From the NCBI GenBank assembly GCA_002702895.1, contig PACX01000005.1, positions 1-64,000 on the forward strand: a DNA stretch of 64,000 nt, written 5' to 3'. Made by a program: the position numbers and the translations under genes. Below, one piece after another: positions 39,835 through 51,401 of the stretch. Under the pieces are notes generated by a model that saw only the letters and a program-made list of their open reading frames with translations, made no database searches and was not told the DNA's origin. Numbering within the stretch: the stretch's first letter is position 1; every line of letters begins with the position of its first letter. This DNA comes from Flavobacteriaceae bacterium. GTDB lineage: Bacteria; Bacteroidota; Bacteroidia; Flavobacteriales; Flavobacteriaceae.

Positions 39835-40167
39835 TTATTTTTCTACATAGACCCAACCACTTTTTCCTGATTGAAATTTTAAATTAATTCTTTTATAATT
39901 ACAAGCTTCATATTTATCAGATAATATAATTTCTTCTTTGTAAACCTTGAATAGTATTCCTTTTATGAAATCACTTTTATTTTCAGTTTTATAAATTATT
40001 GGGTGATTTTCCTCTCCACTTGTGTTAATTACATCTTGATTTTTAATTTTCAATTCCTTTAACTTATATCCAATTAAAATATCATTTGTTCCATTTAGAA
40101 TTCTTCCAAATGTTTCTATTTGAACTTTTCTATACTGAAGCGTTCCATAGGAAAAAAGGCTTTCCAT
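39835..40167 (-). CDS. Gamma-glutamylcyclotransferase (AIG2-like) family protein
   Basis: The 110-residue protein has the family start FSYGTLQYRKVQIETFG with the substrate-binding YGTL loop, the central NGTNDILIGYKL, and SDKYEACNYKRI with the acidic residue near the expected catalytic position. The family releases 5-oxoproline from gamma-glutamyl compounds. It abuts the M81 peptidase gene on the same strand (shared boundary) and lies about 4 kb from a 5-oxoprolinase operon. Confidence 0.75.
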   Translation of the reverse strand: MESLFSYGTLQYRKVQIETFGRILNGTNDILIGYKLKELKIKNQDVINTSGEENHPIIYKTENKSDFIKGILFKVYKEEIILSDKYEACNYKRINLKFQSGKSGWVYVEK

Positions 40168-41720
40168 TAATTCATTTTAGATATATCTATCATTTTTGCA
40201 CTTAAATCAGGTTTTTTCTCAAAGTTATCTAATGGGTACATAGGTCGTTTAATTCTTTTATAATCAAGCCTAAATAAATCTTGATCAACTCCACCAGGTG
40301 TGAGAGCCATGATCCACCCTTTTTTTATACTATAAAGTTCAGGAACTAAATATCCAATTTTAACAATTAAAATATTTGTTTTTGTTGGTTCTAAATCAAG
40401 CTCAGTAAAATCAGAAATATAATGGTACGGTTTTCTTTTTTTAGTAACAATAATATTTAAACTTCCAGATTTTATTACTACTTCTGTTTTGGCATTAATA
40501 TCACCATGTTTAATTGAAATAATTTTTCCTTTAATTTTAATTGGAGGAGAGAATCGATCATCAATTTCTGCACCTACATATTCTTCAATAGTATTGCCAA
40601 CTCCTAATTTTACAGCTTTTTCAACTAATTTTGGACCTGGAATTGATGCATAGATAACACTTGGTCCATTCTTTTTCTTAAATTCAGATCTTTTTAATAA
40701 CTCATTAAGTGTCCATGTAACATCACCAGCTCCTCCAGCTGTAGGGTTATCACCAGTATCGCTAATTATATAAGGAAATTCTTTACTATTTAAAGCTTTA
40801 TTTAAACTCTCTTCTAATGTAGCTACAGGTCCAACAAAATCAAAATCATCCTTTACTTTCCAAAAACTTTCTGCTAAGTATTCGGAAGCTTGTTTGACAG
40901 ATTTTTTTATATCTCCTGTCACCATTATAACAGCATGATTTCTAGGTTCATCTGCCCAAGGATATCCAACCCAAATACCCGCATCAATTATACCTGGACT
41001 TTTAGTTACAGGGTCAACTTTTGCGTATAAGCTTTTTCCAGGTTCAACTCGTGTACTTGTTTTTTCTCCTGGAAGTAAAATTGGAACCTCTATTCTTGCT
41101 TTATATTTTGGTTTACCTTCTCTTAACTCTAATCTTTCTAGAAGGTTGTCAACCGCTCTTTTTTTTGACTCAATAGCATCTTCATGAGGCGCTAATCTGT
41201 AACACGTAATTAAGTCAGTTTCTCTTGCTAAATCTTCAGTTACATTACCATGTAAATCCATTGAGGTCGAAATAATTGTTTCATAGCCAATTAATTTTCT
41301 AATACGTTTAATAAAATCTCCTTCAGGATCATCAAGATCCTCAACACTCATAGCACCATGAATATCAAAAAATAAACCATCAAGTGGTAATTCTTTTTCA
41401 AGCATATTTAATGTTTTATTTACTAAAGATTCATAAGTTTTTCTAGTCACAATTCCGCCAGGTAGAGCATGACCTCTGAGTGTTGGAATCCAATTAGCTC
41501 TATTTCGATTTACAGAATCTTTTGATAAAAATGGATAATATGAAAACACATCATCTCCAATTCTTGATTTAAAATCTATTTCATAGGTTTTTGCTGGTGA
41601 AAATGTGCTAGATTCAATAGCTAATCCAGCAATTGCAATCCTAGGTTTTTTAGAATCTTTTTTACATCCAATTGTAAAAATTATAATAAAAATCAATAAA
41701 AATTTAAATATTTTTTTCAT
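40167..41720 (-). CDS. M81 family metallopeptidase (MlrC-like) lipoprotein
   Basis: A lipobox (LIFIIIFTIGC) is followed by two MlrC domains. IAGLAIESSTFSP, DIHGAMSVEDLDDPEGD, SMDLHGNVTEDLARETDLITCYRLAPHEDA and DTGDNPTAGGAGDVT are diagnostic, the Asp/His residues being the metal ligands. The family is named after the last step of microcystin breakdown in sphingomonads; other members act on linear peptides or amides. A secreted lipoprotein form suggests peptide scavenging at the cell surface. I start at ATG 41720 rather than TTG 41726. Confidence 0.85.
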   Translation of the reverse strand: MKKIFKFLLIFIIIFTIGCKKDSKKPRIAIAGLAIESSTFSPAKTYEIDFKSRIGDDVFSYYPFLSKDSVNRNRANWIPTLRGHALPGGIVTRKTYESLVNKTLNMLEKELPLDGLFFDIHGAMSVEDLDDPEGDFIKRIRKLIGYETIISTSMDLHGNVTEDLARETDLITCYRLAPHEDAIESKKRAVDNLLERLELREGKPKYKARIEVPILLPGEKTSTRVEPGKSLYAKVDPVTKSPGIIDAGIWVGYPWADEPRNHAVIMVTGDIKKSVKQASEYLAESFWKVKDDFDFVGPVATLEESLNKALNSKEFPYIISDTGDNPTAGGAGDVTWTLNELLKRSEFKKKNGPSVIYASIPGPKLVEKAVKLGVGNTIEEYVGAEIDDRFSPPIKIKGKIISIKHGDINAKTEVVIKSGSLNIIVTKKRKPYHYISDFTELDLEPTKTNILIVKIGYLVPELYSIKKGWIMALTPGGVDQDLFRLDYKRIKRPMYPLDNFEKKPDLSAKMIDISKMN

Positions 41721-41765
41721 TCTCAATAATTAGATTAATAATCTTAAATTTAAATATAAATCCTT

Positions 41766-42899: not shown

Positions 42900-43868
42900 T
42901 TAATTTAATAATGTTTTTCTCATAAACTCTTTACTAAAATTATATGATTTTACTCTAGCTTCTGGATTGCCTCCGAAATCAGCTCCCCTAGAAACACACA
43001 TCATAAATCCAATTTTTTGTAAAAAGGGATTTGACATTGGAATATTAACATAATTCATCAAAACATTACCTTTTTCATCAAGTTTAAAAATACATTCACT
43101 AAAATTATAGGCGTTTTCATTTCTTATTACTGGACCTTTCTTATCAAATGAATGATATGAATCTTTATATATTGTGAGTTCAATATTTGTTTTAGGCTTT
43201 AATTTATTAATAAAATCTTTACAAGGCGATGAAGGCGTCCAATTGTCCAATTCACCTATTAAAATATGAATTGGAGAATTAGAAAAATCAACATTATCAG
43301 GATCTATAAAACAAGGAGGATAATATGCTAAGTGAGATGCAAAATCTAATTCTTTATTAATTGCATTTTTAAGTGGAAGCCAGGCAGAGAATAAAGTAAC
43401 CCCACCTCCTAAACTCCATCCAGTTATAGAAACCTTATTCTTGTCAATATTTGGATGTTTTGATAATACTTCAAAAGCCCTATATGCATCAAGAATCATG
43501 GCAGCCATAGTTATTTCAGTTTGAGTTCCAACAGTAGAGTTAATATTTCTACTTTTAAAACTGTTTAGCTCAAAGGTAGCAATACCCATTTCTTGATACA
43601 TTTTTAAGTACTCATAATGATGATCTGACCACCCTAAACTTCCTGCAACTCCAATAACTAATGGATATTTTTTATCATTATTAATAGAATTTTTAGGAAA
43701 AACAAGTTTACCAAATACTATTTGTTTTTCTTGATTTTCTAAATCTGTAATTACATCATTAAATGTGTAAGGATTTGCACTATTAAATTGAATATTTTCA
43801 ATCTTTAGCTGTCCATAGATAATAAATGTATTTAGAAAAAAAGAAATTAATAGAAATAGCTTATTCAA
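42900..43868 (-). CDS. Secreted dienelactone hydrolase-like alpha/beta hydrolase
   Basis: The 322-residue protein has a signal peptide (to about residue 19). The nucleophile motif TGWSLGGGVTLF, an Asp in HILIGELDNWTP and a His in IYKDSYHSFD fit the alpha/beta hydrolase triad. The pattern GSLGWSDHHYEYLKMYQEMGIATFELNSFKSR is typical of the dienelactone hydrolase family. It may act on lactones, esters or peptides. It lies 6 bases from the following lipoprotein gene on the same strand. Confidence 0.83.
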   Translation of the reverse strand: MNKLFLLISFFLNTFIIYGQLKIENIQFNSANPYTFNDVITDLENQEKQIVFGKLVFPKNSINNDKKYPLVIGVAGSLGWSDHHYEYLKMYQEMGIATFELNSFKSRNINSTVGTQTEITMAAMILDAYRAFEVLSKHPNIDKNKVSITGWSLGGGVTLFSAWLPLKNAINKELDFASHLAYYPPCFIDPDNVDFSNSPIHILIGELDNWTPSSPCKDFINKLKPKTNIELTIYKDSYHSFDKKGPVIRNENAYNFSECIFKLDEKGNVLMNYVNIPMSNPFLQKIGFMMCVSRGADFGGNPEARVKSYNFSKEFMRKTLLN

Positions 43869-43874
43869 AACATT

Positions 43875-44378
43875 TTATTCCTGAGTTCCTGGATTTTTTG
43901 CAGAAAACCATGATACTAGTTTTCCATCAACTATTTGATACCACTCAATATATACTCCATCTTGACCAGTAAATTGAGCATTAACCCATTCGCCATCTTG
44001 ATTTGTCGCAGCAGGGTCATCAGAACCTCTTGGCTTGACTGAAAATGCATAATCAATATTCCAACCCCATTCTTGTCCATCATCTAAAGATTTTTGATAG
44101 TCTTCCTCTACTTTAGAAGCAAATTCTTCACCTGTATTAACTACTAAGCCATCACTAAAAGTAAAGTTTCCTCCGTCTGAAATTAGTGCTTTCAAAGCAT
44201 CGTAATCTCTTTTAACCCAAGCAGCATCAATTTCTTTAACAACATCAACTGATGAATCCGAACCCATAAAAACAGTCTGACCTTCATAAGGACCAAAACC
44301 ATTAGTTGCAACTTCGCAATTAGGAGCACATGAAATAAATAGTCCAATTAGGCTAAATAATAAAATATAATTTTTCAT
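43875..44378 (-). CDS. SnoaL/NTF2-like lipoprotein
   Basis: A short lipoprotein (lipobox LIGLFISC) of 167 residues. The fold is of the NTF2/SnoaL type: VVKEIDAAWVKRDYDALKALISDGGNFTFSDG, then a cone-like beta-sheet with WVNAQFTGQDGVYIEWYQIVDGKLVSWF. Members bind small ligands or act as isomerases; none of the catalytic residues can be assigned. It probably belongs to the same operon as the hydrolase downstream. Confidence 0.75.
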   Translation of the reverse strand: MKNYILLFSLIGLFISCAPNCEVATNGFGPYEGQTVFMGSDSSVDVVKEIDAAWVKRDYDALKALISDGGNFTFSDGLVVNTGEEFASKVEEDYQKSLDDGQEWGWNIDYAFSVKPRGSDDPAATNQDGEWVNAQFTGQDGVYIEWYQIVDGKLVSWFSAKNPGTQE

Positions 44379-44458: not shown

Positions 44459-45310
44459 TTAGGATTCAATTAATTTAAACTTTATTCTATTTCCCATGTG
44501 TTTTTGAGATAGTTTGTTTATAGATTTTTTTGATAATTGAAGTATTCTTGGATAACCTCCACATGTTTGACTATCTCTCATTAGAATTATTATTTTACCA
44601 GAGGGAGTTAATTGCACTGTTCCTTGCAATACTAGTGAAGTAATTATTGAATTAAGTATATTATCAAATGATTCATTTAATTGATAAGCCATTCTATCAT
44701 TATTATTTGAAATTGAAAATGTTTTATTTAATAAAACTTGCTTTTGTTTTTTTGTTAACTCATTGTATTCTGGGCCTTTAAAAACTTCAATTATATTACT
44801 CTTGAAATGTTCTAAATAATTGATATTAATTTTAGTTCTCTTAGTATTTATATTTTTTAAAGTTTTAATCTTTAAACTATCTCCTTTATTTATTCTACTA
44901 TATTTAGTAATATTCAAATACATGCTTCTGCTATTCATTATTTTTTTCGATAAAAATCCTCCAGAAACACTTAAATATGAACGTAATCCATATTTTAATT
45001 TTCCAAATTTTAAAATATCACCCTTTTTTATTTGATATATGCTATTAACATCAATTGACTTGTCATTTATTGATGGACTAATATCTGCACCTGTAATACA
45101 TATTCTAGTTTCTTTCAAGAATTTTAAAATAGGCCCAACCATTGTTATTTCCATTACAGCATCATTATCCATGTTTCCTAATAATTTATTTGAAAGAACT
45201 GATGAAAATTGATCCATTGATCCAGAAACAGGAACCCCATAATTTTCATATTCAAATCTTCCAAGATCTTGTATTGAAGAATAAAGTCCTGATTTTATAA
45301 TTTCAATCAT
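44459..45310 (-). CDS. pxpC: 5-oxoprolinase subunit PxpC (biotin-dependent carboxylase-like domain)
   Basis: The third subunit of the prokaryotic ATP-dependent 5-oxoprolinase PxpABC, also called KipA/allophanate hydrolase subunit 2. IIKSGLYSSIQDLGRFEYENYGVPVSGSMDQFS at the start and SIITSLVLQGTVQLTPSGKIIILMRDSQTCGGYPRI near the end are the family signatures. At 283 residues it is a little shorter than common homologues. Its start overlaps pxpB by 8 bases, as expected for a tightly co-translated complex. Confidence 0.93.
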   Translation of the reverse strand: MIEIIKSGLYSSIQDLGRFEYENYGVPVSGSMDQFSSVLSNKLLGNMDNDAVMEITMVGPILKFLKETRICITGADISPSINDKSIDVNSIYQIKKGDILKFGKLKYGLRSYLSVSGGFLSKKIMNSRSMYLNITKYSRINKGDSLKIKTLKNINTKRTKININYLEHFKSNIIEVFKGPEYNELTKKQKQVLLNKTFSISNNNDRMAYQLNESFDNILNSIITSLVLQGTVQLTPSGKIIILMRDSQTCGGYPRILQLSKKSINKLSQKHMGNRIKFKLIES

Positions 45311-46034
45311 TTATTTTGGTCTTTATTGGTTTATAAATATTGGATTCAACTTGTATTTTAATTAGTTCATGTTCTTTTAATGATATTGGATTAAATTTTA
45401 TTTTATCTCCTGGTTTAATAAAGCATGGAGAGGTCTTATTTATATTGAATAAATTAATTGGTGAGTTTCCAATGATATGCCATCCTCCCGGACTAGTATT
45501 TGGATAAATTCCTGTTTGTGATCCTCCAATTCCAACAGATCCCTTTGGAACATTTAAAACGGGTTTTTCTTTACGAGGATGATGAATCTTTTTATCTAAT
45601 CCACCTAAATATAAAAAACCAGGAAGAAATCCTATATTATAGACTCTATATTCTTTAGAGTTATGTAAATAAATAATATCATCTTTATTCATTGAAAGAT
45701 TTTTCTCTAAATTAATTAGGTCACTTCCAAATTGATTGTCATAACATACAGGTATTTCCCATGTATTGAAATCCTGCTTTTTTACTGGCCCAATTTTTTT
45801 ATAGCTATTATTTAATTCAGATATTTTAGTATTATAATTTATTTTTTTTTCATATGAAATAAGTAAAGAATTATAGGAATTTTTTAAATAAACCTTTTTG
45901 TTAATATATTTTTTCTCAATTTCTGATTTAAATAATAAAATATTTTCTAAAATAGATTCATCAATTTTTGAGGGCCATTCCACTAAAACAGAATATTCAC
46001 CAAACCTTTTATATTTTAACTTATAGAATTTCAA
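45303..46034 (-). CDS. pxpB: 5-oxoprolinase subunit PxpB (KipI-like)
   Basis: A 243-residue KipI/allophanate-hydrolase-subunit-1 protein. The C-terminal cyclophilin-like domain has NIGFLPGFLYLGGLD, HPRKEKPVLNVPKGSVGIGGSQTGIYPNTSPGGWHIIG and SPCFIKPGDKI, which are diagnostic. Together with PxpC it is thought to activate 5-oxoproline with ATP. It starts 2 bases past pxpA and overlaps pxpC by 8 bases. Confidence 0.94.
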   Translation of the reverse strand: MKFYKLKYKRFGEYSVLVEWPSKIDESILENILLFKSEIEKKYINKKVYLKNSYNSLLISYEKKINYNTKISELNNSYKKIGPVKKQDFNTWEIPVCYDNQFGSDLINLEKNLSMNKDDIIYLHNSKEYRVYNIGFLPGFLYLGGLDKKIHHPRKEKPVLNVPKGSVGIGGSQTGIYPNTSPGGWHIIGNSPINLFNINKTSPCFIKPGDKIKFNPISLKEHELIKIQVESNIYKPIKTKIND

Positions 46035-46036
46035 TT

Positions 46037-46768
46037 CTAAATAATTTTTATTCCAATTTTCTTTAATTTTAAATGTAAATCTTTTAATAATTCAATAACA
46101 TTTGGATTATCACCATGTATGCATAACGTGTCAAACTCAACATTTGTTTCTTTTTTATTAATACATATAATTTTATTATTAATTATATTATGAACGTGTG
46201 TAAACATTTCGTTAGAACTTTCTATTAATGCATTAGAATTTTCTCTAGATACAAGTGTTAAGTTTGAATTATAGTTTCTATCAATAAATAATTCATTACA
46301 CGTTTTAACTCCTTCTTCTATAGCCATTTTAGAAATAAGAGAAGAATAGGGGACATATAATTTTGTTTTCATCTCTTTTGTTATATTTATTATAACTCTG
46401 GCAGTTTCTTTATCATTTGACGCAAAATTATAAAGTGCTCCATGAGGTTTTATATGATTTAAATCCATATTTTCTTTATTCAATATATTTTTTAAGGATT
46501 CTATTTGATTTTTCAAAGATTTTTCTAAATTAATATTTGAAATCTTCATTATTTTCCTTCCAAAATTTTTTCTATCGGGAAAAGATGGATGAGCACCAAT
46601 TTTTAAATTATTCTTTTTAGCTAATCTAACAACTGACAACATAGTCTCTAAATTGCCAGCATGTCCTCCGCAAGCAATATTACATGAAGAAATTAATGGG
46701 AAAAGCTGATCTTCATTACCAATTCCTTCACCAACATCTGAATTAATATCAATCTTAAGATTTTTCAT
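46037..46768 (-). CDS. pxpA: 5-oxoprolinase subunit PxpA (LamB/YcsF family)
   Basis: A 243-residue deacetylase-like TIM-barrel protein that hydrolyses the activated 5-oxoproline ring to glutamate. KIDINSDVGEGIGNEDQLFPLISSCNIACGGHAGN, GAHPSFPDRKNFGR and HIKPHGALYN hold the conserved Asp and His residues of the active site; CIHGDNPNVIELL closes the barrel. Length is typical. It directly abuts the Nramp-like gene, with no space between stop and start. Confidence 0.94.
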   Translation of the reverse strand: MKNLKIDINSDVGEGIGNEDQLFPLISSCNIACGGHAGNLETMLSVVRLAKKNNLKIGAHPSFPDRKNFGRKIMKISNINLEKSLKNQIESLKNILNKENMDLNHIKPHGALYNFASNDKETARVIINITKEMKTKLYVPYSSLISKMAIEEGVKTCNELFIDRNYNSNLTLVSRENSNALIESSNEMFTHVHNIINNKIICINKKETNVEFDTLCIHGDNPNVIELLKDLHLKLKKIGIKII

Positions 46769-47992
46769 TTATAATAATTCAAAAACTTTTAAAATACTTT
46801 TTAAACCTAAAAAAATTGTAATAACAAGAATAGATAATCCAATAAAATTTTGCCATTTTGAATTTTTATATTTTCCTAGAATAGATTCCTTATTTACAAT
46901 CCATATTAAAAAACCAGCAATTACAGGCAATAATATTCCGTTAGCCACTTGTGCAAATTTTATTATCTCTATGGATTTATATCCCGAAGATGAAGATATA
47001 ACTCCAGCCAATAAAATAAACATCCAAACGCTTCTAAACTTTAATCCTTTCATATTAAATGACCAACCCAAACATCCAGAAGCTACAAAAGATGCAGCTA
47101 GGGGGGCGGTTATTGCACTTGTAATCCCAGCTGAAAATAATCCAATAGCTAAGATATATTTAGAATAAATACCATAAAGTGGCTCAATCCCCTTAGCTAA
47201 ATCAGCAGCATTATTAATATTATCAATATTTAATGAAGCACTAGAAATAATAATACACATAGATACTATTCCACCAAGGACAATAGAAACTATCGTGTCA
47301 TTTCTGGCAAATTTTAAATCACTTTTATTCTTCCATTTTTCTTTAACTAATGAAGCATGAAGAAAAAGATTATATGGAACTACAGTTGTACCAATTAATC
47401 CAATAATTATTAAAAAACTTCCTTTTGGGAATTTAGGCACAAATAAACCATTAAATAAATCAGTTATATCCGGTTTAGTTATAATAGCAGTTATAATGAA
47501 CGATAAACTCATTATTATTACTAAAAAAATCAGACATCTTTCAAGAATTTTATAATTTCCTATGTACAGCAAAAAAAATGCTATTAATCCTAAAATAATA
47601 CTATAAAAATTGATATTTATATTTAGAATAGTTAAATCTTTTTCTCCAAAGACAGCTTCTAATCCTAATAAGCCTCCACTAATATTTCCTGCTTCGTAGG
47701 CTGCATTTCCTATCACTATGGCAGATAGTATTAATGTTATTACAATATTTCTAAAACCAGGGTTTTTAATTTCTTCTCTAATAACTTGAGAAAGTCCTTT
47801 GTTTGATACTATGCCAACACGGGCAGACATTTCTTGAAGAACTATTGTAGCAATTATTGATAGAACTAAAGTCCATAAAAGAGAAAAACCAAAATCAAGT
47901 CCAGCTATACTACATAAAGTAACAGTTCCTGGACCAATAAACGCAGCAGCAACTAATGGTCCTGGTCCAATATTATTAATCCATTTTTTCAT
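46769..47992 (-). CDS. Nramp-like transporter without the canonical metal-binding motifs (YcsG-like)
   Basis: A 407-residue inner-membrane carrier with the LeuT-like Nramp fold and about 11 helices. In canonical Nramp proteins helix 1 has DPGN and helix 6 has MPH, which coordinate Mn2+ or Fe2+. Here these are G20-P-G-T23 (FIGPGTV) and V205-P-Y207 (TTVVPYNLFLHASLV), so metal ligands are absent. It is the first gene of the operon with pxpA, pxpB and pxpC, as for ycsG in Bacillus. The likely cargo is therefore not a divalent metal; 5-oxoproline or a related organic acid is a reasonable hypothesis, not shown. Confidence 0.85.
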   Translation of the reverse strand: MKKWINNIGPGPLVAAAFIGPGTVTLCSIAGLDFGFSLLWTLVLSIIATIVLQEMSARVGIVSNKGLSQVIREEIKNPGFRNIVITLILSAIVIGNAAYEAGNISGGLLGLEAVFGEKDLTILNININFYSIILGLIAFFLLYIGNYKILERCLIFLVIIMSLSFIITAIITKPDITDLFNGLFVPKFPKGSFLIIIGLIGTTVVPYNLFLHASLVKEKWKNKSDLKFARNDTIVSIVLGGIVSMCIIISSASLNIDNINNAADLAKGIEPLYGIYSKYILAIGLFSAGITSAITAPLAASFVASGCLGWSFNMKGLKFRSVWMFILLAGVISSSSGYKSIEIIKFAQVANGILLPVIAGFLIWIVNKESILGKYKNSKWQNFIGLSILVITIFLGLKSILKVFELL

Positions 47993-48028
47993 TTATAAAA
48001 TTAAATTTAAATACAATTTAATAACTTT

Positions 48029-49799: not shown

Positions 49800-51401
49800 T
49801 TATTTCTTTCTTTTCCACACTTCTTCAACATCTATGTTATTATTTGCTTCATCAGTAATTGTATAATTTACAGTAAAATAATTGGCATCTTTAGTATATG
49901 TTAGATTATAAACACTAAGACTTTGTTGATTAGGGCCTACTTTTACTTGGTTGTTAGTACCATTATAAGTCCATACTCCATCTTCCATCTCAGTTTTCAT
50001 AGTTGATCCATCTGTATAACATATATAGGTTGTCATTTTATAAGTTCCATAATCATCTTTTCCTCCATTTATCGTAAGGGCATTAGATGGGTAATTATCA
50101 CATTTCTTTTCCCCTGTTCCAAATTGAGTATGATCAGTACCTGATTTATTAGTCCAACTTTCAAGTTCCCAATCTCCAATTAGTGGACACTCAGGCCAAG
50201 TTCCCCAAACGGGTTTTTTATCATCATTATCACAAGCAGAACCAGTAAGAAAATTAGTTGGCTCAGTTGTTAAGTTTACAACACACCATTTAGATAAATC
50301 TTGATTGAATTTTGTACAGGATTTGAACATTTTGTCCATATTAGTAACTTTATTTGTATCCCATTTACTTATATCCTGATTAAATGAACTTGCACCTTCA
50401 AACATACCTTCCATTGTTGTAACATTACTTACATCCCAAGAAGAAATATTTCCATTAAAAGTAGAATTATTTTTAAAAAGTTCTTTCATATCAGTAACAA
50501 GTGTTGTTACAGCTTTTGAAAGATCTTTCCCTGTACTTATCCAACTCTTAAGCATTGCATTGTCAACTACAGTATATGAAATTCCATTTATCTGACAAGT
50601 GGTTCCTGCAGTAGCATCAGCCTTAGCTTTTAAAGTAATCCCATCATTATCTAAAACGACATGTGAAAGATTTTTATAGACAGCAATAACTGTTGTGTTT
50701 GAATTTATTGTAACCTGTACAGGATTATTTGTTCCACCTGCTCCTCCAGACCATTTTTCAAATTGCCATCCTGAAAGCGGTGTTGCAGTAAGTTCAATTA
50801 TAGATCCATCAGTATATTTAGCTGCAGTTCCAGCTTTTATTACTTTTTTAGCTACTGATCCTTGTCCATCATTGACGATTTTTAGTTCAAATTCATTTTT
50901 TTCTGTAAATGTTGCAGTTACACTTTTTGCTTTATCAAGGGTAATTTGCTGAGGATTTGTTGTTCCTATCATTGATCCACTCCATTCTTTAAAAATCCAA
51001 CCTGCTTTTGGACTTGCTGTAAGTTCAACTATTGTTCCAGTATCATATTTAGTTGCTCCTCCAGCTTTTATTACTTTTTGATCAACAGTTCCTTGACCAA
51101 CTACTGAAACAGTAAGTTCAAATTGTATTTTGACAAAATTTCCTACTACAGTTTTATCACCATCTATAACTAAAGTAGTTGTAGCATCTCCACTAGCACC
51201 AGTCCATTTGTCAAATACGTATCCTTCTGCTGGACTTGCAATTAATGTTGCAGTATCCCCTGTATTATATTGTCTAGTTGATGGAAGGACAATTCCAGCT
51301 TCTTCAGGATTAGCTGATGTTGTTAATAAGTATTTAACTGTTTCGTCTTTTTCACATGAAAACAAAATAAAAACTGAAATAATGATAAAGATCTTTTTCA
51401 T
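49800..51401 (-). CDS. InlB B-repeat/BspA-like lipoprotein with lipocalin-like C-terminus
   Basis: A lipoprotein (C16 in FILFSCEKD) built of three InlB B-repeats at residues 24-91, 93-168 and 170-244, each ending in a W-S/T-G and a strand such as TVTATF. Next comes a BspA/DUF285 region, with MKELFKNNSTFNGNISSWDVSNVTTMEGMFEGASSFNQDISKWDTNKVTNMDKMFKSCTKFNQDLSKWCV, which is a leucine-rich-like adhesive repeat. The last 130 residues (LIGDWELESWTNKSG) resemble a lipocalin-like domain. Such surface proteins often mediate binding; the ligand is unknown. Confidence 0.82.
   Translation of the reverse strand: MKKIFIIISVFILFSCEKDETVKYLLTTSANPEEAGIVLPSTRQYNTGDTATLIASPAEGYVFDKWTGASGDATTTLVIDGDKTVVGNFVKIQFELTVSVVGQGTVDQKVIKAGGATKYDTGTIVELTASPKAGWIFKEWSGSMIGTTNPQQITLDKAKSVTATFTEKNEFELKIVNDGQGSVAKKVIKAGTAAKYTDGSIIELTATPLSGWQFEKWSGGAGGTNNPVQVTINSNTTVIAVYKNLSHVVLDNDGITLKAKADATAGTTCQINGISYTVVDNAMLKSWISTGKDLSKAVTTLVTDMKELFKNNSTFNGNISSWDVSNVTTMEGMFEGASSFNQDISKWDTNKVTNMDKMFKSCTKFNQDLSKWCVVNLTTEPTNFLTGSACDNDDKKPVWGTWPECPLIGDWELESWTNKSGTDHTQFGTGEKKCDNYPSNALTINGGKDDYGTYKMTTYICYTDGSTMKTEMEDGVWTYNGTNNQVKVGPNQQSLSVYNLTYTKDANYFTVNYTITDEANNNIDVEEVWKRKK
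50670..51332 (-). repeat. Three InlB B-repeats within the lipoprotein gene
   Basis: Three protein-level repeats of about 70-75 residues share the motif TxxLxAxPxxGxxFxxWxG and a following V-x-x-x-F/Y strand. Copies 2 and 3 also share VIKAG and KY near the start and look recently duplicated relative to copy 1. DNA identity between copies was not calculated. Confidence 0.75.

Follow-up and report, generated by a model that had tools for sequence, protein, structure and literature searches.

A carrier of the Nramp family is encoded together with the three subunits of 5-oxoprolinase (PxpA, PxpB, and PxpC) in a four-gene operon of a Flavobacteriaceae bacterium, and its solute is probably 5-oxoproline (pyroglutamate) or a very close cyclic amide. 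The operon lies on the minus strand of a 64,000-nt stretch of contig PACX01000005.1 (the window, whose coordinates are used here for all operon features). The source assembly is a small Flavobacteriaceae genome of 1.87 Mb with a completeness of 93.9%. Import of 5-oxoproline is likely because the carrier lacks the usual metal-binding residues and shares its operon with 5-oxoprolinase. The observations behind this reading are the anatomy of the operon, the fixed absence of metal ligands, the fold of the carrier, its linkage to PxpABC, and the linkage of its archaeal relatives to a cyclic-amide hydrolase. A 5-oxoproline carrier of this kind is not a new idea; it has already been proposed for PxpT/YcsG, a carrier type to which the window lineage is about 25% identical.

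Organization of the operon

The operon runs from 47992 to 44459 in the order carrier, pxpA, pxpB, pxpC, with all features on the minus strand. The carrier gene (46769..47992, 407 aa) comes first, and its product matches Pfam PF01566 (Nramp, 6.7e-92). It is followed without a gap by pxpA, the gene of 5-oxoprolinase subunit A (LamB/YcsF; 46037..46768, 243 aa; Pfam LamB_YcsF, 2.9e-75). The gene of subunit B, pxpB (45303..46034, 243 aa, TTG start; Pfam CT_C_D, 9e-61), lies 2 bp further on and overlaps by 8 bp with pxpC, the gene of subunit C (44459..45310, 283 aa; Pfam CT_A_B, 7.7e-68). A previous reading of the window, made from the letters of the DNA (the sequence-only reading), had described the carrier gene and pxpA, pxpB, and pxpC as abutting or overlapping; all four were found where it had placed them, and Pfam confirmed their identities. 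PxpA and PxpB also exceeded curated NCBIfam cut-offs (NF003814, 229.4 bits against 226; TIGR00370, 160.9 bits against 145.55).

The carrier has the Nramp fold and lacks the canonical metal site

Equivalent sites were assigned by sequence alignment to BfraNramp and DraNramp, and conservation was counted over 120-121 pxp-linked clade members. In the unwound segment of transmembrane helix 1 (TM1), where canonical Nramps have D-P-G-N, the carrier has G20-P21-G22-T23 (47924..47935, minus strand, within AAFIGPGTVT); GPGT was present in 120/120 clade members with this segment. The unwound segment of TM6, canonically M-P-H, is V205-P206-Y207 (47372..47380, minus strand, within GTTVVPYNLF), with all three residues found in 121/121 members. 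Both replacements had been noticed from the sequence, and the alignment confirmed them; a further one was found in TM3. There, the segment Y99-E-A-G-N103 (47684..47698, minus strand; Y99 and N103 in 121/121) has N103 at the position of the canonical metal/proton glutamate, which is E134 in DraNramp and E116, a Mn2+ ligand, in BfraNramp. All five canonical ligand positions are changed (D to G20, N to T23, M to V205, H to Y207, and the TM3 E to N103), and the changes are fixed in 120-121 sequences. According to the alignment, no acidic residue occupies the TM1 or TM3 ligand position in the pxp-linked clade. The Gln of TM10 (Q348) is retained as in canonical Nramps, and N351 is fixed where canonical Nramps have Leu. 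Since about 120 relatives show no variation in GPGT, V205, Y207, and N103 and pxpA lies directly downstream in 117/121 cases, the replacements are not due to chance.

The AlphaFold2 model of the carrier had a pLDDT of 89.2 and a predicted TM-score (pTM) of 0.89. Foldseek placed this model closest to EleNRMT (TM-scores 0.88/0.90); BfraNramp scored 0.85/0.93. Beyond Nramps, the matches were carriers of the same superfamily, including the amino acid carriers ApcT, AdiC, and MhsT. From the structural matches and the alignment of ligand positions, the fold is that of Nramp (LeuT/Nramp) and the canonical metal site is absent. The carrier missed the curated cut-offs of the MntH type (NCBIfam MntH, 162.5 against 430 bits; TIGR01197, 104.5 against 272.5), and among the NCBIfam Nramp models it passed only the broad NF037982.

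The sequence-only reading held that the carrier had "lost" DPGN and MPH. In a published rooted phylogeny, Nramp-related proteins without these motifs are basal and paraphyletic to canonical Nramps, the metal site being gained later (PMC12873925). The motifs were possibly never present in this lineage, and "lacks" is the safer wording. The trees of this analysis were rooted on canonical rows for drawing only and have no bearing on loss versus gain.

One further Nramp-family gene of another type was found in the same genome (L002, 1420-2631, G000:C13). Its TM1 reads IGVSHLVQST, and by eye it lies between sigma-factor-like and lipoyl-synthase-like genes; many other genomes of the genus encode a protein of this type.

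Linkage of the carrier to PxpABC in relatives

In the genome collection, PxpA was encoded beside the carrier in 65 of 67 contigs bearing a relative, and the usual order was carrier-pxpA-pxpB-pxpC. In the two unlinked contigs, a transposase is followed by the contig end (L084) or the carrier itself is cut by the contig end (L089). Linkage was also assessed in a family sample of 251 evenly sampled genomes. The carrier was present in 156 and PxpA in 190 of them, and every carrier genome (156/156) had PxpA. Adjacency was scored in the 121 carrier/PxpA pairs with both locations listed; pxpA was directly downstream on the same strand in 117, with a median gap of 26 nt that includes about 15-20 nt of pxpA. 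The dependence is one-way: the carrier implies the oxoprolinase, and not the reverse. The link between carrier and 5-oxoprolinase, as first proposed for the window, proved very strong in family genomes and is reinforced by the HyuAB neighbours of haloarchaeal relatives. A search for viral relatives found none.

Other neighbourhoods were also seen. In L153 (4100-5206), a pxp-clade carrier gene overlaps an upstream DUF2891 gene by 4 bp and has no adjoining pxpA, a possible clue to DUF2891. In two Flavobacteriaceae (L209, 5132-8933; L210, 5064-8854), the carrier gene stands apart from pxpABC and abuts a long gene. The long gene of L210 encodes an M1-family aminopeptidase, with an FKBP-type isomerase on the other side.

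Relatives of the carrier beside HyuAB and other enzymes

Relatives on haloarchaeal plasmids are 47-51% identical to the window carrier and keep GPGT. Their operons encode the carrier, HyuA, and HyuB in this order, in most cases after a CopG regulator; an Asp/Glu-racemase-family or maleate-isomerase-like protein is often encoded next. The gap between the carrier and HyuA genes is 0-1 bp in Haladaptatus, Halocatena, Haloferax, Haloarcula, and Halorussus; HyuA directly follows the carrier in Halobellus too, and Natrononativus is an exception to this arrangement. Bacteroidota carriers of about 35-38% identity also adjoin HyuAB (L137, L142, L143, and L144). On a second tree, calculated without row L002, the HyuAB neighbourhood requires at least two separate changes.

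HyuAB is unrelated to PxpABC. Caprolactamase, acetophenone carboxylase, and N-methylhydantoinase are the named families nearest to it, with NCBIfam matches below the curated cut-offs; N-methylhydantoinase and caprolactamase are ATP-dependent openers of cyclic amides. Judging from these families, HyuAB probably opens some cyclic amide or imide, 5-oxoproline being one candidate. That a single lineage of carriers adjoins two ATP-dependent cyclic-amide hydrolases with no relation to each other is the strongest argument for a cyclic-amide solute, and not a metal; it points to 5-oxoproline or a close cyclic amide as the compound taken up. Among the papers available for searching, none joined Nramp and hydantoinase.

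The carriers of L131, L132, L133, L134, and L139 have GPGT, and VVTYN or VVAYN in TM6. Their genes lie directly after a two-gene 2-oxoacid:ferredoxin oxidoreductase, in which POR_N and TPP_enzyme_C domains were found in L132 and L139 and TPP_enzyme_C in L131. This position suggests another organic acid as the solute of these carriers, so that other organic acids may be among the solutes of the wider clade.

Comparison with known carriers

In Corynebacterium glutamicum, growth on 5-oxoproline depends on pxpT and is restored by a plasmid copy of the gene, as reported in 2026 on the basis of genetics (PMC13274462). The operon of the window has the same gene order as pxpT-pxpA-pxpB-pxpC of C. glutamicum, whereas ycsG lies downstream of pxpA in Bacillus subtilis (PMC13274462); the order had previously been equated with Bacillus ycsG-ycsF-kipI-kipA, and the C. 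glutamicum order is the one that matches. B. subtilis YcsG was first tied to the use of 5-oxoproline, with polarity not excluded (PMC13274462, PMC10448178). The protein has been renamed MntG; its over-expression raised cell Mn2+, and the earlier deletion was suspected of polarity (PMC10448178). MumT of Acinetobacter baumannii has been reported as a Mn2+ importer (PMC5050338). A PDB sequence search did not recover B. subtilis YcsG itself.

PxpT/YcsG ("G-motif 3" Nramp-related proteins) and the window carrier are alike as Nramp-fold carriers in pxpABC operons. The YcsG type was represented by relatives from Bacillus badius, Lactiplantibacillus, and Acinetobacter. G20-P21-G22, N103, and Y207 are common to these proteins and the window carrier, and the YcsG-type relatives examined also lack the canonical metal ligands. 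In contrast, identity is only about 25%, and the YcsG type has Phe after GPG (Thr in the window carrier) and Gly-Gly-Tyr in TM6 (Val-Pro-Tyr in the window carrier). The two are separated by a very long branch (length 4.7 on the second tree), and the approximately unbiased (AU) test of a common clade gave p 0.057 for the pxp clade with YcsG and p 0.48 for all GPGT carriers with YcsG, so that such a clade is not firmly rejected. Orthology with Bacillus ycsG finds no support in this low identity and separate branch. By analogy, the window carrier probably works like PxpT.

Compared with the canonical BfraNramp (clade B) and DraNramp (clade A), the window carrier has the same fold, a full-length identity of 20-28%, and the TM10 Gln; it differs in lacking the D, N, M, and H ligands and the TM3 Glu and in its place in an oxoprolinase operon. 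EleNRMT, the Nramp-related Mg2+ transporter (NRMT) with the closest fold, likewise has no DPGN or MPH. However, EleNRMT-like proteins keep the TM1 Asp (DAGG) and the TM3 Glu and have no linkage to oxoprolinase, whereas the window carrier has GPGT. A tripartite ATP-independent periplasmic (TRAP) carrier beside pxpBCA in Leisingera occupies a similar carrier slot in a pxp operon, although it belongs to an unrelated protein family. Nramp-related groups other than NRMT and MntG have been termed "entirely uncharacterized" in a structural and phylogenetic study (PMC12873925).

In A. baumannii (L174, 4701-9163), apparently at the mum locus, PxpA-, hydro-lyase-, PxpB-, and PxpC-like genes were found beside the YcsG-type MumT. 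These genes suggest that the operon published as one of "manganese and urea metabolism" could encode a 5-oxoprolinase.

Proposed mechanism

In the proposed scheme, 5-oxoproline or a closely related cyclic amide would enter the cell through the carrier in the inner membrane; PxpABC would then use ATP to open 5-oxoproline to glutamate, a supply of carbon and nitrogen. Transport would proceed by alternating access in the LeuT fold. In AdiC and ApcT, carriers of the amino acid-polyamine-organocation (APC) superfamily, amino acids sit on a glycine-rich TM1 turn. The carboxylate of 5-oxoproline may similarly rest on the backbone amides of the unwound Gly-Pro-Gly turn of TM1, with the lactam held by fixed polar residues of TM3 (Y99 and N103), TM6 (Y207 and N208), and TM10 (Q348 and N351). 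Import of 5-oxoproline is also favoured by the presence of ApcT, AdiC, and MhsT among the nearest non-Nramp folds, by the precedent of PxpT, and by the presence of a TRAP organic-acid carrier in the same slot of other pxp operons.

Contrary evidence and alternative explanations

Several findings weigh against import of 5-oxoproline. Increases in cell Mn2+ have been reported for YcsG/MntG and MumT, which are themselves carriers of pxp-type operons (PMC10448178, PMC5050338). The PxpC of the window fell below its curated cut-offs, slightly for TIGR00724 (226.1 against 230.2 bits) and far for the narrow PxpC equivalog model NF045499 (180 against 500). It is thus a divergent yet recognisable PxpC; the Pfam CT_A_B cut-off is far exceeded. 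The carrier is missing from 34 family genomes that have PxpA, where the inspected pxpABC loci rarely adjoin any carrier; this fits a repair role in which pxpABC also acts on internally formed 5-oxoproline. Conversely, pxp-clade carriers were found away from pxp genes in L149, L150, L153, and four other cases; pxpA is retained elsewhere in the genomes of L149, L150, and L153. The substrate of HyuAB could be hydantoin or another lactam. The argument from exchange of enzymes beside the carrier is weakened by the relatives of about 36% identity that follow 2-oxoacid:ferredoxin oxidoreductase (L131-L134 and L139), and also by clade members in Qipengyuania and Pseudoalteromonas that adjoin neither PxpABC nor HyuAB. 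HyuAB and the oxidoreductases use metals, so that gene context alone is still compatible with metal supply; the absent ligands do most of the excluding. EleNRMT moves a divalent metal despite having no DPGN or MPH, but it keeps an acidic residue there (DAGG).

A different organic solute, such as hydantoin, another lactam, glutamate/glutamine, or a 2-oxoacid, is unlikely for the window carrier. The linkage to PxpABC would then reflect downstream metabolism. Relatives adjoin HyuAB, for which hydantoins or caprolactam are possible, or 2-oxoacid:ferredoxin oxidoreductase, so solutes may well differ within the wider clade; the pxp-linked branch, however, has a nearly invariant site and an almost strict linkage to pxpABC, and 5-oxoproline is the only known substrate of PxpABC. 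It is quite unlikely that the carrier imports a divalent metal through another site, providing PxpABC or nitrogen metabolism with Mn2+ or Mg2+ in the way claimed for MntG and MumT. That explanation draws on published in vivo data (YcsG/MntG, PMC10448178; MumT, PMC5050338), and searches of this genome revealed neither a canonical Nramp nor a ZnuA-type binding protein. Against it, each of the five ligand residues has a fixed replacement and neither the TM1 nor the TM3 position is acidic, a ZIP transporter offers the genome another metal route, and the neighbourhood is marked by unrelated lactam-opening enzymes and not by a shared metalloenzyme. Movement of metal and 5-oxoproline together, or of a metal-carboxylate chelate, would reconcile the two sets of reports, since both activities have been described for YcsG-type carriers in different organisms; it is very improbable, as no metal ligand set is visible in the alignments.

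Significance of the carrier lineage

The sequence-only reading had proposed a substantial change of substrate class within the Nramp family. Such a change would not be new, as PxpT was reported in 2026 to be needed for growth on 5-oxoproline (PMC13274462). The change is contested because YcsG/MntG and MumT have been reported as Mn2+ importers (PMC10448178, PMC5050338). For the one pxp-linked group that has been studied, published accounts contradict each other, describing either a 5-oxoproline carrier or a Mn2+ importer. With a second lineage, in which the site is fixed and metal-free and the neighbours are two unrelated cyclic-amide hydrolases, the dispute becomes testable; this lineage also bears on the question of whether metal transport is the original role of the fold. 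The genome label "divalent metal transporter" is probably wrong for a large group of such proteins.

More tentatively, the GPGT clade, which spans Bacteria and Archaea, could form a family of its own, distinct from YcsG/PxpT, whose Nramp-fold members carry cyclic amides and other small organic acids; the case for this falls somewhat short of even. If true, transport of organic solutes would be common or ancestral among Nramp-related proteins and metal transport a later specialisation.

Flanking sequences and other genes of the window

A gap of 36 bp (47993..48028, minus strand, from sequence) separates the operon from a divergent endonuclease gene, and the operon promoter must lie within this gap or inside the endonuclease gene. 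The promoter scan gave 47 sigma-70-like sites against 30 expected in such AT-rich DNA, which is uninformative, and the terminator scan found none. An origin of the operon from foreign DNA was considered and dropped (G+C content 25.9% in the operon, 28.0% in the window). The downstream genes at 43875-44378 and 42900-43868 were not counted as an extension of the operon, as they are present there only in close relatives.

Two other genes of the window were noted. The protein encoded at 40167-41726 is lipoprotein-like and belongs to the M81/MlrC family (Pfam DUF1485 and MlrC_C); it resembles microcystinase MlrC while scoring far under the MlrC cut-off. By eye, the gene at 49800-51401 encodes a surface protein with repeated InlB-like segments and a BspA/DUF285-like stretch.

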